Positions 3,478 through 9,840 of a stretch of 34,297 nucleotides of DNA are shown piece by piece; positions within the stretch are counted from its first letter, which is position 1; every line of letters starts with the position of its first letter. Below the pieces are notes generated by a model. The model was not told where the DNA came from. It did no database searches and saw nothing but the letters and a program-made list of their open reading frames with translations. The translations under genes and the position numbers were made by a program. Source of the stretch: Verrucomicrobiales bacterium (GTDB lineage Bacteria; Verrucomicrobiota; Verrucomicrobiia; Limisphaerales; DUCD01); contig DUCD01000023.1 in NCBI GenBank assembly GCA_012959985.1, positions 1 to 34,297 on the forward strand, given 5' to 3'.

Positions 3478-3502
3478 CATGTCTCATTTCAAATACCAAC
3501 TG

Positions 3503-4188
3503 ATGAGCAGGGAAACGATTCTGGTTATTGAGGATGAGGAGGATATACAGGAACTGATCCGGTATAATCTCGCGAAGGAGGGTTACCGTGTTCATTGTGT
3601 AGACGAAGGAGAAGAAGGTGTTGAGATTGCACGGACTGCAGAGGCGGATCTCATCGTGCTCGATCTCATGTTGCCGGGGATCGATGGTTTGGAGACTTGT
3701 CGGCGCATCAAGAAGAACCTTCCACTTCACATATTCCTGTCATCATCCTGACAGCAAAGAGTGAAGAAAGTGACATCATCACGGGGTTGGAAGTGGGCGC
3801 CGATGATTACATCGCCAAACCTTTCAGTCCAAAGATTCTTACCGCAAGAATTCGAGCTGTTCTCCGGCGGTCCAACCTTCCGATCAAAGATGACCAGGCC
3901 ATCATTCGAATTCATGAATTCATCATTCATCCGGGACGCCATGAGGTATTGATTGCCGGTAAGCCCGTTCAATTGACGTTCACGGAGTTCAAGATTCTTC
4001 ATTTATTATCCCGGCGAGCCGGTTGGGTGTTTTCCCGGTATCAGATAGTCGATGTCGTTCGGGGAGACGACTATGCCGTGACGGACCGATCGGTTGATGT
4101 GCAGATTGTCAGTCTTCGTAAGAAATTGGGAAAATCGGGCAAAGCCATTGAAACGGTCCGGGGTGTCGGCTATCGGTTCAAGGAATAA
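3503..4188 (+). pseudogene. phoB: PhoB-type response regulator, interrupted by a one-base deletion
   Basis: From the ATG at 3503 the receiver domain reads normally: acidic pocket ED-EED at residues 10-14, phospho-acceptor Asp54 in LDLMLPG, then CRRIKKN. At about 3718 the frame breaks and would stop at 3749-3751. In the next frame the protein continues at once with PSTSHIPVIILTAK, the receiver K-loop, followed by an OmpR/PhoB winged-helix domain ending in GVGYRFKE. Restoring one C in the run at 3718-3719 gives a single full-length regulator. An alternative start at 3479 would add eight residues. PhoB-type regulators activate phosphate-uptake genes when phosphorylated by PhoR, and that gene (also damaged) lies three bases downstream. 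It is either a true frameshift or a sequencing error in a homopolymer. Confidence 0.85.
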
Positions 4189-4191
4189 ACC

Positions 4192-4530
4192 ATGAAACGA
4201 AGACGATTGCTTTGGCAGCTGTTTCCGACCTATCTGGGTATAACTCTAGTTGCCCTGATTGCCGCCACCTGGTACGCATCGGTATCCTTCCGGCAATTTT
4301 ATTACAGTCAGGTTTTTAAAAGCTTGGAAGTCAGTGTGTTTCTGTTTGAACCCTTTATTTCCAGATCGCTTTCTGATCCGAATCGCCTTGATCTTCAGGA
4401 ACTGATATCGAGCGTTGGACGCAGAACAGAAGCACGGATCACGATTATCGATGCTGTCGGGAAGGTTTTAGGAGATTCACATTCTGACCCGGGACCCATG
4501 GATAACCACAACGATCGACCTGAAATCCGA
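4192..4530 (+). pseudogene. phoR: PhoR-like sensor histidine kinase, N-terminal remnant fused to pstS
   Basis: The ATG at 4192 follows the phoB stop closely and has a good ribosome-binding site (AAGGAAT). The product starts with a transmembrane helix (residues about 12-33) and a periplasmic segment. It ends in the PhoR-like phrase GKVLGDSHSDPGPMDNHNDR followed by PEI. Intact relatives would continue with HAMP/PAS, a His-containing dimerisation domain and an HATPase domain. None of these exists here. From about 4529 the DNA encodes the middle of PstS in a different frame, and the phoR frame stops at 4540-4542. So the sensor has lost all its catalytic parts. Either a deletion occurred in the cell or the assembly has joined two places. 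Confidence 0.8.
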
Positions 4531-5242
4531 GGTTTCAGTTGAAGTTTCGGGAGGTGGGTCCGGTACCGGTATTGCCGCATTGATCAATGGGACTGCAGAC
4601 TTGGTCAATTCCAGTCGAGCCATGAAAGATTCAGAATTGGACCGTTCCAAACAGTCATCAGGCGAAGATCCGAAGCCGTTCACCATGAGTTTTGATGCCT
4701 TGGCGGTTTATGTCCATAAGGACAATCCATTGGAGGAAATCACCCTGCAGCAGTTGGCGGGAATCTATGGAGAAGGTGGAAATCTCACCCAGTGGACTCA
4801 GCTCGGAATACAAAACCAAGGATGTTCCAGTGCTGAAATTATTCGGGTGAGTCGTCAATCCAATTCCGGAACTTACGCCTATTTCCGTGAAGCAATTTTA
4901 GGAAAAACCAAAGATTTCAAATTGGGATCTAGGGATTTACACGGTTCGAAAGATGTGGTGGAATTGATCAGTAAAACCCCTTGTGCCATCGGTTTCAGCG
5001 GGATGGGGTATGCAACAAAGGGAGTTAAAATGCTTCGGGTTGCCAGGAGTGAGAGTGCTGAAGCCTTTGCCCCCACTGTCCTGAATACCCGGGACAAAAC
5101 TTATCCGATTGCACGTCCGCTCTATATGTACACTCTGGGGGAACCGGAAGGGATACTTAAGAAATATATCGACTGGTGTCTGAGTGAAGTGGGGCAGAGC
5201 ATCGTCGAAGACAGTGGCTATGTTTCTGTTTCCAAGGACTGA
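4529..5242 (+). pseudogene. pstS: PstS phosphate-binding protein, N-terminally truncated
   Basis: The frame is open from 4472, but recognisable PstS begins near 4529 with EVSVEVSGGGSGTG and INGTADLVNSSRAMK. It continues through DALAVYVHKDNP, SRQSNSGTYAYF and a normal C-terminus ending in YVSVSKD. The signal peptide and the first lobe's N-terminal strand are missing. There is no ATG in frame before the conserved region, so export and phosphate binding are not expected as written. PstS is the periplasmic phosphate receptor for PstC-PstA-PstB, encoded directly downstream. The upstream neighbour is the truncated phoR, joined without a gap. The identity is firm; whether the truncation is real is open. 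Confidence 0.85.
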
Positions 5243-5272
5243 TATGAATTATAACAAATTCGAAAATTCGGG

Positions 5273-6154
5273 ATGAAAATGCGACGTTCTCAATGGGAGA
5301 TTCTTGCAGAGTCAGTGATCGAATGGATCATTCGAATCTGTGGAATCAGCGCCATCTTTTTCTTTGTCTTTCGCGAAGGAGCGGGGTTTTTATTCGGGGG
5401 CTTGGATCTGGGTCAGTTCTTCACGAGTCCAGAATGGTATCCTTCTTCGATCAGCAATGTGCGTTATGGAGTGTTGGCATTACTGGCCGGGACTTTCAGC
5501 GTTACCCTTCTAGCTATGGTGATTGCCGTGCCCTTCGGTCTCGGCGCCGCCATATTCGTTTCTGAATTCTGCAGCCCTAAGATGAAGGAGTCATTCAAGA
5601 TCCTGATTAAGCTTCTGGCCGCGATTCACTCGGTAGTCTGGGGATTCATCGGGCTGACCATCATGAATGAACTGATCATAGAGGTGTTCGATGCGCCGGT
5701 GGGTTTGACGGTTCTCAACGGCGGAATCATTCTGGCATTGATGAGTGTTCCGATCATTGTTTCCATTGGAGAGGATGCACTCAAGGCGGTTCCGGAATCT
5801 TACCGTGAAGCGGCATTGGCTCTGGGAGTCACTCGTTGGCAGATGATATACAGAGTCTTGTTGCCGGCTGCCAAAAACGGTTTGTTGGCGGCCGTTCTGT
5901 TGGGAGTAGGGCGTGCAGTCGGGGAAACCATGGCCGTGTTGATGGCGACCGGTCACGCTGTCAATATTCCCAACAGTCCTTTGGATTCCGTCCGTACCTT
6001 AACCGCGACGATTGCCGCAGAATTGGGAGAAGCTCCTGTGGGGTCGGATCATTATCAGGTTCTGTTCATTATCGGAATCCTTCTGTTCACTATCACCTTC
6101 TGCTTCAATTTGATGGCTGATTTAATCGTCAAGGGAATCCGCAGTGGGAAATAA
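5273..6154 (+). CDS. pstC: Phosphate ABC transporter permease PstC
   Basis: This intact 293-residue inner-membrane permease has about six hydrophobic segments. The cytoplasmic EAA coupling loop is visible as EAALALGVTRWQMIYRVLLP, which contacts the ATPase. The conserved GRAVGETMAVLMATG segment of PstC is also present. The length is normal for the family. The start at 5273 lies 30 bases after the pstS stop and lacks a clear Shine-Dalgarno sequence; a second in-frame ATG follows two codons later. It pairs with PstA to form the membrane channel of the high-affinity phosphate importer. The gene order pstS-pstC-pstA-pstB is the usual one. Confidence 0.95.
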   Translation: MKMRRSQWEILAESVIEWIIRICGISAIFFFVFREGAGFLFGGLDLGQFFTSPEWYPSSISNVRYGVLALLAGTFSVTLLAMVIAVPFGLGAAIFVSEFCSPKMKESFKILIKLLAAIHSVVWGFIGLTIMNELIIEVFDAPVGLTVLNGGIILALMSVPIIVSIGEDALKAVPESYREAALALGVTRWQMIYRVLLPAAKNGLLAAVLLGVGRAVGETMAVLMATGHAVNIPNSPLDSVRTLTATIAAELGEAPVGSDHYQVLFIIGILLFTITFCFNLMADLIVKGIRSGK

Positions 6155-6160
6155 CCGGCT

Positions 6161-7044
6161 ATGTTTACAGAATCGACATTCGGACGGAAAAAAAAGCGAA
6201 CCCAACTATGCGCCAAGTTGATTTTCATGGGGATGGTGTTTGTCATGATCCCCCCCTTAATCCTGATTGTGGCCTATTTGTTTATCAAGGCGTAGCGATT
6301 CTCTCGTTGGATTTCATCATGGAATCACCTAAAAGAGGTATGCGTGAAGGAGGCCTGTGGCCCGCGTTTCTCGGGACGGTATATCTGGTTATAATCTCAC
6401 TGATGGTGGCTGCGCCGATAGCGGTGATGGCGGCCGTCTACTTGAATGAATATGCCAAAGACAATTGGCTCATCCGGATCATAAATTTGGCCGTGATTAA
6501 TTTGGCCGGTGTTCCCAGCATCGTGCATGCATTATTTGGTTTGGGGGCTTTTGTGCTGTTTGCAGGGATGGGGAAATCGATCCTTGCCGCTTCGTTAACC
6601 CTGGCAATCATGACACTGCCGGTGATCATTGCCAGTACCAAGGAGGCGCTGTCCGCAGTGCCGACAACCTTTCGGGAGGCTTGTTGGAACGTGGGGGCCA
6701 CACGTTGGCAAACGATTAAGGGGATTGTTCTTCCCAATTCAATTACCGGAATCCTGACCGGAATCATCCTCCAAGTTTCCCGGGCTGCTGGGGAAACCGC
6801 CCCTATCATGTTTACCGGTGCCGTCTTTTATAAAAAAATAACGGGCGGAGATCTGTTCGCTTATGGTTTGAATGACCAATGCATGGCCCTGTCCATGCAC
6901 TTGTATACGATTTCCACCCAAGTGCCGGACGTGCCTGAAGCGCTTCCCTATGGAACTGCGGTGGTTCTCCTGTTGACCGTGCTTTTGGTCAACGTAATTT
7001 CCATCACTTTGCGCGTGTATCTTCGAACCCGAAAGAAATGGTGA
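6161..7044 (+). pseudogene. pstA: Phosphate ABC transporter permease PstA, one-base deletion near the start
   Basis: The ATG at 6161, six bases after pstC, begins a typical PstA N-terminus: basic residues GRKKKR, then a first membrane helix with FVMIPPLILIVAYLFIK. This frame hits a stop at 6293-6295. The next frame continues exactly where it should, with GVAILSLDFIMESPKRGM, and runs to 7044 with the EAA loop EACWNVGATRWQTIKGIVLP and the GETAPIMFTGA segment. One G restored in the run at 6289-6290 gives a single 294-residue permease. A shorter start at 6208 is only an accident of the shifted frame, since its first residues are hydrophilic and unlike PstA. The 3' end overlaps the start of pstB1. 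Confidence 0.85.
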
Positions 7045-7802
7045 ATCGACAAAAGAAAATCGAGGTTTCCGGTTTGTCCGTTGCATTCGGAAATAAGGAC
7101 GTTATTCGGAACATCACTTTTGATGTTTCAGGCAATGAGGTGCTTGGCATTATCGGGCCTGCACAATCGGGGAAAACGACTTTACTCAAAGTCCTCAATC
7201 GAACCCTTGAGTTGGTTCCTCAAGCAAAGATTGACGGTATTGTTCGTGTGGATGGAGAAAATATCCGGGAGATCAAAGACGTTTACTCCTATCGTAGACG
7301 TGTCGGCATGGTGGCGCCGTTACCGGTTGGCCTGCCATTGTCGGTTTATGATAATGTGGCCTTTGCTCCCAGGCGGGCTGGATTAAGAAAGCGGGCGCCG
7401 TTGCACGATCTGGTTGAGAAATGTTTGAGACAGGCAGCTCTGTGGGACGAGGTAAAGGATCGGTTGGGGAGTTTGGGGGCCAGATTATCGGGAGGGCAGC
7501 AACAACGTCTCACCATTGCACGCGCCCTGTCGCACCAGCCTGAAATTCTTTGTCTGGATGAGTTCTCTATTGCCATTGACCCGGTAACGACCATGAGGAT
7601 CGAGGATGTTCTGAAAGAGTTGAAATCCGAAATGACCATCATTCTGGTTACTAATCTTGTTCAACAGGCAAGACGTCTTGCGGATCGCACTGCGTTCTTT
7701 CTGAACGGTGATCTCGTGGAAATTGATGCAACAGAAAAAATGTTTTCAGGTCATGCGTTCGACCAACGGACCAACGATTATGTCAGTGGAGATTTCGGAT
7801 GA
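7038..7802 (+). CDS. PstB-family phosphate transporter ATPase, first copy (degenerate Q- and H-loops)
   Basis: This 254-residue ABC ATPase has its ATG overlapping the pstA stop. Walker A is GPAQSGKT (40-47), the signature LSGGQQQR is perfect (150-157), and Walker B is ILCLDE with D174 and E175. Two normally invariant positions are changed. The Q-loop, usually VGMVFQ, reads VGMVAP, so Pro94 replaces Gln. The switch histidine of VTHN is Asn206 in VTNLVQQ. The D-loop reads IAID instead of SALD. PstB ATPases normally work as homodimers powering PstCA. Here a second pstB follows with the opposite defect, which suggests a heterodimer. The stop overlaps the start of the second copy. Confidence 0.9.
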   Translation: MVNRQKKIEVSGLSVAFGNKDVIRNITFDVSGNEVLGIIGPAQSGKTTLLKVLNRTLELVPQAKIDGIVRVDGENIREIKDVYSYRRRVGMVAPLPVGLPLSVYDNVAFAPRRAGLRKRAPLHDLVEKCLRQAALWDEVKDRLGSLGARLSGGQQQRLTIARALSHQPEILCLDEFSIAIDPVTTMRIEDVLKELKSEMTIILVTNLVQQARRLADRTAFFLNGDLVEIDATEKMFSGHAFDQRTNDYVSGDFG

Positions 7803-8578
7803 GTGAAGAGGCGTTCCATTATAGTATAGAAACCAGGGAATTGAATCTGTGGTATGGCGACTTTCAGGCATTGATTAATATCGATGTCCAAATTCCCAAA
7901 GGAAAAATCACTGGCTTGATCGGTCCATCCGGTTGCGGGAAAACAACCTTACTTCGCTCGTTCAATCGCGTAAATGAGCATTACGGAAATGTCACTACTA
8001 CGGGTGAAATTAAACTCCTGGGAAAAAATATTTATGACTCGGATGTGGATTTGATTGAATTAAGGAAATGCGTAGGCATGGTTTTTCAACGGCCGAATCC
8101 CTTACCGCTCTCGGTCTATGAAAACGTGGTGTTCGGTTTACGTATTCACACCGAACGAAAAGAACTGAGCAAATCGACACTGGATCAAGCCGTCGAGCAA
8201 TCGCTTCGGGATGTGTTGCTCTGGGATGAATTAAAGGACAAACTTCATTCCCGGGGAACTTCACTCCAATTGGATCAACAGCAGAAACTGTGCATGGCTC
8301 GGCTCCTTCCACTGAAACCGGAAATCGTGTTGATGGATGAGCCATGCTCGGCCTTGGATTCTGAGGCAACACGAGGAGTGGAGGAATTGATGTTGAGTCT
8401 CGCGGGAAAGTATACCATCGTCGTCGTTACCCATAACATGGCCCAAGCCAGACGTGTCAGTGACGAATGTATTTTCATGTTGCTCGGAGAATTGGTCGAA
8501 CATGCCCGTACCGAAAGCATGTTTTTAAACCCTAGAAATCCTAAAACTGCGGAATACATTGAAGGACGATACGGTTGA
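7799..8578 (+). CDS. PstB-family phosphate transporter ATPase, second copy (degenerate signature motif)
   Basis: This 259-residue ABC ATPase overlaps the first copy by four bases (ATGA) and has a GGAG ribosome site. Walker A GPSGCGKT (42-49), Q-loop Gln97 (VGMVFQRPNP), Walker B IVLMDE (D180, E181), D-loop SALD and switch His212 (VTHNMAQA) are all intact. The ABC signature, LSGGQQQR in ordinary PstB, reads LQLDQQQK at 156-163, so the Ser-Gly-Gly that contacts the ATP gamma-phosphate is absent. The rest of the protein is typical PstB, for example RPNPLPLSVYENV. A homodimer of this protein should be inactive. Together with the first copy it could form one complete ATP site. It is followed by a porin gene, with no phoU in the window. 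Confidence 0.9.
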   Translation: MSEEAFHYSIETRELNLWYGDFQALINIDVQIPKGKITGLIGPSGCGKTTLLRSFNRVNEHYGNVTTTGEIKLLGKNIYDSDVDLIELRKCVGMVFQRPNPLPLSVYENVVFGLRIHTERKELSKSTLDQAVEQSLRDVLLWDELKDKLHSRGTSLQLDQQQKLCMARLLPLKPEIVLMDEPCSALDSEATRGVEELMLSLAGKYTIVVVTHNMAQARRVSDECIFMLLGELVEHARTESMFLNPRNPKTAEYIEGRYG

Positions 8579-8631: not shown

Positions 8632-9840
8632 ATGGATTCAATAACAGGAAATCTCCACTTCAAGAATTCTGTGAAGTGTTTTTTTGGAAATCTGTGCCCA
8701 ATCCTGTTCATAGCAATTGGAGTTTTGATTCCTGGATGGGTGATCGAGGCCGAATCTAAAAACATCCCCCCGGAAGTTGAAGCGAATGATGCCGGTCCGG
8801 TTAAGGAAACCTCCTTTTTCGAGGACACTTTGGCATTAACCAAATTGTACAATAATCCCAATAATACGTTTGTGCAGTCTGTGACTTTCACCGGACGCTA
8901 TCAGATGGATTATACTGTTCTGGACTCAGACGATTATGACCGCCTAAACAATCGTCGCTGGAGAATGGGGTTCAAAGTCAAATTATTCAAAGACTTTAGC
9001 TTGCATTCTGAAGTGAGTCTTGATCATGACGAAAATCCTGTTTACACAGGATTGACGGATCAATATCTGGCCTGGAGTCCCAAAGAAAACCTCACTTTCA
9101 CCCTTGGTAAACATAGTACGCCTTTTACATTGGATGGTCATACTTCTTCTAAAAGGCTGTTGACCATTGATCGCAGTAATCTTTCAAACAATATGTGGTT
9201 CACCCGAGAATACCAGCCGGGTGTCAGTGGAAAGGGATTTATTAATCAGTGGGTTTGGCAAGTGGGAGTCTATTCTTCCGGAAGTGTTTCAAAGGAATTT
9301 GGGAATTTTGACGGCAAAGGGTTTATTTTGAGTACTGTGGGTTACGACTTTGCCAAGGCGCTGAATGTAGAGAAAGCATTACTGCGCCTCAATTACGTGT
9401 ATCAGGAAGAAGACGAGGACAATACGGCAACCCGAAACCTCCGAAATGTTGCCTCACTCAATTTTTCATATGACCGTGGAAAGTGGGGGTTCCGTTCCGA
9501 TCTGACAGGGGCAACTGGATACGAGGAGCAGAGCGATCTCTGGGGAGTGACAGTGATGCCTTTTTACAATATTTCTGACAAATTTCAACCCGTCCTGCGT
9601 TATACATATCTCTCCAGTAACGACCCTAATGGTGTACGCTTGGCTCGGTATGAAAATCAGGTGATTTCAGGACGGGGCGACGAGTATAACGAAATATTTG
9701 GCGGACTTAATTATTATATTTACGGTCATAATCTGAAGATCCAGTCAGGGATTAAATATGCCGAAATGCATGACGCCGCCCATGATGGAGGAAGTTACCG
9801 TGGATGGGGATGGACTACTGGGCTTCGTCTCAGTTGGTAG
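8632..9840 (+). CDS. Phosphate-selective porin O/P family outer-membrane protein
   Basis: The 402-residue protein starts with a long hydrophobic signal region (FGNLCPILFIAIGVLIPGW). It then consists of alternating amphipathic strands typical of a 16-stranded OprP/OprO barrel, with phrases such as FTGRYQMDYTVL, LYLAWSPK-like turns and LTFTLGKHSTPF. It ends in an aromatic residue (GLRLSW), the usual signal for barrel insertion. Its position immediately after the pst genes strongly supports a role as the outer-membrane entry route for phosphate or pyrophosphate. OprP-type porins also take up other anions, so specificity is inferred from context. Its stop is one base from the stop of the convergent cyclase gene. 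Confidence 0.85.
   Translation: MDSITGNLHFKNSVKCFFGNLCPILFIAIGVLIPGWVIEAESKNIPPEVEANDAGPVKETSFFEDTLALTKLYNNPNNTFVQSVTFTGRYQMDYTVLDSDDYDRLNNRRWRMGFKVKLFKDFSLHSEVSLDHDENPVYTGLTDQYLAWSPKENLTFTLGKHSTPFTLDGHTSSKRLLTIDRSNLSNNMWFTREYQPGVSGKGFINQWVWQVGVYSSGSVSKEFGNFDGKGFILSTVGYDFAKALNVEKALLRLNYVYQEEDEDNTATRNLRNVASLNFSYDRGKWGFRSDLTGATGYEEQSDLWGVTVMPFYNISDKFQPVLRYTYLSSNDPNGVRLARYENQVISGRGDEYNEIFGGLNYYIYGHNLKIQSGIKYAEMHDAAHDGGSYRGWGWTTGLRLSW

Follow-up and report, generated by a model that had tools for sequence, protein, structure and literature searches.

In this Verrucomicrobiales draft genome, the beginning of a phoR-like sensor kinase gene runs straight into the end of a pstS gene in another reading frame. 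This raises the question of whether the organism has truly lost the sequence in between, or whether the contig merely skips it. The window, i.e. the whole stretch of DNA analysed here, comprises 34,297 bases at the start (1-34297) of a 46,056-base scaffold, and the draft genome has a size of 7.5 Mb in 524 contigs, with 94% completeness and 4% contamination. The most probable answer, in our judgement, is that positions 3479-7044 represent a recently inactivated phoB-phoR-(phoU?)-pstSCAB locus with a genuine deletion. The features of the locus are listed in Table 1.

Table 1. Features of the phosphate locus and the adjoining gene, with positions in the window.
Feature	Position	Strand	Basis or remark
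phoB-like response regulator gene, frameshifted near 3721-3732 (~3725)	3479..4188	+	ORF 3479-3751 and ORF 3697-4188
phoR-like sensor kinase gene, 5' remnant	4192..4530	+	only membrane helix and sensor-domain start; PF16736, alignment with L117, L118 and L040
deletion joint phoR/pstS (probable)	4526..4530	+	frames and homologue boundaries; missing: phoR kinase core, pstS 5' end, possibly intervening phoU
pstS (phosphate-binding protein), 3' remnant	4526..5242	+	PF12849, TIGR02136
pstC, open frame, damaged	5273..6154	+	TIGR02138; alignment of relatives
pstA, frameshifted near 6287-6295 (~6290)	6161..7044	+	frames read from sequence; TIGR00974 in ORF 6208-7044
pstB1 (ATP-binding subunit), open frame	7038..7802	+	TIGR00972
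pstB2 (second ATP-binding subunit), open frame	7799..8578	+	TIGR00972
porin O/P-like gene, open frame, adjoins operon	8632..9840	+	PF07396

The joint between phoR and pstS

The window agrees with PhoR homologues up to the motif 'DRPEIR' (4527-4530) and then reads GFS followed by a stop codon (4540-4542), giving a phoR frame of 116 aa (4192-4542). Its sCache-like domain matches positions 33-76 of the 117 positions of PF16736, and the match ends at residue 112, base 4527. In the homologues, found in two order-level relatives and one other genome, 'DRPEI' or 'NRPEI' is followed by the kinase core. The full-length homologue L117, which is 34% identical over 112 aa, continues for 489 residues past 'DRPEIR', and the two measured cases span 476-489 residues beyond the motif. 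The histidine kinase core needed for a functional PhoR-PhoB pair is absent, the sensor start alone being left of PhoR.

The pstS homology opens at 4526-4529 in a different frame. PF12849 is matched from base 4526 over positions 36-266 of 267, and TIGR02136 over positions 66-294 of 295, the latter below its cut-off. PstS relatives, with up to 69% identity, align with the window from 'EVSVEVSGGGSG' on. A functional Pst system would need a complete PstS with a signal peptide and both lobes; the remnant lacks the signal peptide and the first ~72 residues. Homologue boundaries and the three profiles bear out the earlier note, which had described a chimeric phoR-pstS junction in two frames. The stretch that it considered plausible in both frames (4517-4531) was too wide, as only about four bases (~4526-4530, CCGA) can be read as both PhoR and PstS. 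Resemblance to relatives is lost in the PstS frame 5' of 4526 and in the PhoR frame 3' of 4530.

Size of the loss

Kinase core and pstS start had been thought to amount to well over 1 kb of missing sequence, and full-length relatives agree with this, indicating a loss of at least 1.65 kb (~1.43-1.47 kb of phoR, encoding 476-489 aa, and ~0.22 kb of pstS, encoding ~72 aa). Among 70 loci with enough upstream sequence, 39 have a phoU ahead of pstS on the same strand, and in none is phoR the gene immediately before pstS in the same orientation. The PhoU family, which 13 of 14 control genomes contained, had no match anywhere in the organism's own genome. Because phoU precedes pstS in so many loci and has no match in this genome, it may have gone together with the phoR/pstS segment in a single event, and the total would then be ~2.8-2.9 kb. 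Short-homology and non-homologous joining both fit as the route of deletion. None of the collections searched contained the undeleted parent sequence. A scan for close relatives that used the PstS remnant alone as query returned none, and among the relatives covered, the nearest of them at order level, no close one with phoR adjoining pstS came to light.

The PhoU encoded upstream of pstS in one relative (L026, 4419-5546) and in others is ~380 aa long, and its C-terminal part reads like a low-molecular-weight phosphatase or arsenate reductase domain.

Further lesions in the operon

The joint is one of several lesions in the operon and no lone oddity. In phoB, PF00072 is split between ORF 3479-3751 (positions 1-68) and ORF 3697-4188 (positions 69-111), and the PhoB profile TIGR02154 between positions 3-71 and 69-225 of 226. 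Since the two frames together cover the profile with no part missing, the break fits a small net frameshift near 3725. The receiver and DNA-binding domains, which a functional PhoR-PhoB pair would carry in one frame, are separated by it. In pstA, the first frame stops at 6293-6295 and the remainder lies in ORF 6208-7044, and the gene is uninterrupted in one frame in an order-level relative (G035). PstC is missing a six-residue stretch of its first membrane helix that 81 of 82 relatives keep, and carries the substitutions E113K and P119H at sites that are E and P in all 85 relatives. Because these changes preserve the frame and affect conserved sites, they are not typical sequencing errors. With the pstA frameshift and the loss in PstC helix 1, the intact pair of permeases required by a functional Pst system is missing; its ATPase is present, both pstB frames being open with Walker motifs like those of relatives.

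At conserved columns, PstA, PstB1 and PstB2 are not clear outliers in their number of changes, and the decay must therefore be recent. A surplus of PstA and PstB substitutions had been considered as a sign of decay and was dropped, as there is no such surplus. The altered signature of PstB2 was likewise dropped as a further lesion, being common to most relatives.

Several independent inactivating lesions thus lie beside intact neighbours, as in a decayed pseudogene locus, and the genes tested elsewhere along the 46-kb scaffold are whole. When three lesions were scattered at random in a simulation (42 kb of coding sequence), 1% of draws placed all of them inside 2.6 kb; this is a rough guide, since the lesions were picked post hoc. 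The gene pair 3-773 / 748-2148 was considered as a frameshift pointing to scaffold-wide error and rejected, because the second frame (748-2148) opens with a signal-peptide-like sequence of its own and the frames of several homologues are just 633-721 aa long. Immediately beyond the window, a protein frame is broken by a run of unknown bases (L034, ~1200-1600), which represents an assembly gap or a withheld stretch.

Missing pieces in the rest of the genome

The only PF12849 PstS match in the genome is the broken copy, and no convincing PstS N-terminus was found elsewhere in it (best E 0.03). The PhoR sensor region likewise occurs in a single copy. Histidine kinase cores are many, and the missing part of a PhoR homologue, used as query, gave matches of only 24-47%, mostly limited to the shared kinase core. 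No kinase match could be recognised as the lost PhoR piece, though strictly any of them might be. These genome-wide absences are weak evidence, since the draft consists of 524 contigs, is 94% complete and has the gap or withheld stretch past the window.

Origin of the joint

If the joint were a chimera of assembly or reads, phoR and pstS would be intact in the living organism and the contig would skip the interval between them. The draft is fragmented and this very scaffold has a gap or withheld stretch, which leaves room for such an error, and low-coverage or strain-mixed stretches could produce frameshifts as well as false joins. Against it, the overlap of about four bases is too small for a k-mer join, far below assembler word length. 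For the ends to share a word as long as assemblers use, one of the two proteins would need to lose all resemblance to its relatives exactly there, which makes such a word very unlikely. Furthermore, the joint contains no Ns, the lost PstS start was not found on any other contig, the PstC changes, affecting invariant positions, point to real relaxation, and the other tested scaffold genes are whole. We thus consider a chimera unlikely. Of the two origins offered in the earlier note, a join by the assembler on a shared word loses ground through the short overlap, and a real deletion is favoured because the operon holds other independent lesions, the tested scaffold genes are whole and the joint shares few bases.

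The joint and the frameshifts could also be real in part of the population only, with a strain variant represented in the consensus. This would agree with the recent decay and with an assembly that appears to resemble a metagenome bin, but the bin holds no alternative contig with intact genes, even if binning may lose one, and such a variant seems very improbable. That the hybrid and split genes still function, e.g. by ribosomal frameshifting or internal restart, is scarcely credible. PstB1 and PstB2 are conserved and open frames run on at both sides of the breaks, yet PhoR is without its kinase domain and PstS without signal peptide or first lobe, no slippery heptamer was seen by eye at the breaks, and relatives read through in one frame. 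In the recent decay that we favour, a deletion of at least 1.65 kb would have taken the PhoR kinase core and the PstS start and left the remnants joined out of frame, frameshifts would have broken phoB and pstA, and PstC would have lost part of a membrane helix. As kinase core, first lobe of PstS and intact PstA are all absent, the sensor pair and the high-affinity transporter should both be non-working.

The tandem PstB pair

Orthologues of PstB1 carry the signature LSGGQQQR in all 81 relatives, but 'DEFSIA' after Walker B. In PstB2 the Walker motifs are canonical, and it is the signature that is changed, reading LQLEQQQK or LQLDQQQK in 72 of the 81. The tandem pair (7038-8578) is accordingly predicted from its motifs to be asymmetric, with one standard and one degenerate ATP site kept over several phyla. 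No description of this asymmetry was found in a limited literature search.

Phosphate uptake and implications

The locus has the gene families of the phoBR-pstSCAB phosphate starvation locus, with the pstS-C-A-B-B order of order-level relatives. It differs in that phoB, phoR, pstS and pstA are broken, pstC is damaged and the genome is without phoU. In a verrucomicrobial relative (L036, 2074-6603), a second, divergent pstSCAB-phoU set lies directly upstream of the set orthologous to that in the window.

An intact Pit transporter of the PHO4 family (471 aa) is encoded on another contig together with a TIGR00153 partner, and the genome has no match to the Na/Pi cotransporter family. Phosphate is probably imported by this Pit transporter. 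In ammonia-oxidising archaea from phosphate-richer waters, Pst is lost or rare and Pit is kept (PMC7490402). The likeness lies in Pst loss with Pit retention, whereas here the Pst genes persist as broken remnants. A literature search found no close match to the phoR/pstS decay, which looks like ordinary gene decay.

High-affinity phosphate uptake should not be annotated for this genome on the strength of automated calls, which would include PstC, PstA, PstB and parts of PhoB and PstS. It is conceivable, if rather doubtful, that in adapting to phosphate-rich conditions the lineage has given up the whole phosphate-starvation response (PhoB, PhoR, PhoU and Pst) and relies solely on Pit, and that this loss has been caught midway, with permease and ATPase genes still readable. 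Pst loss with Pit kept is a known ecological pattern (PMC7490402), and an example at an intermediate stage, from a genome that is large and non-streamlined, would add modestly to it.
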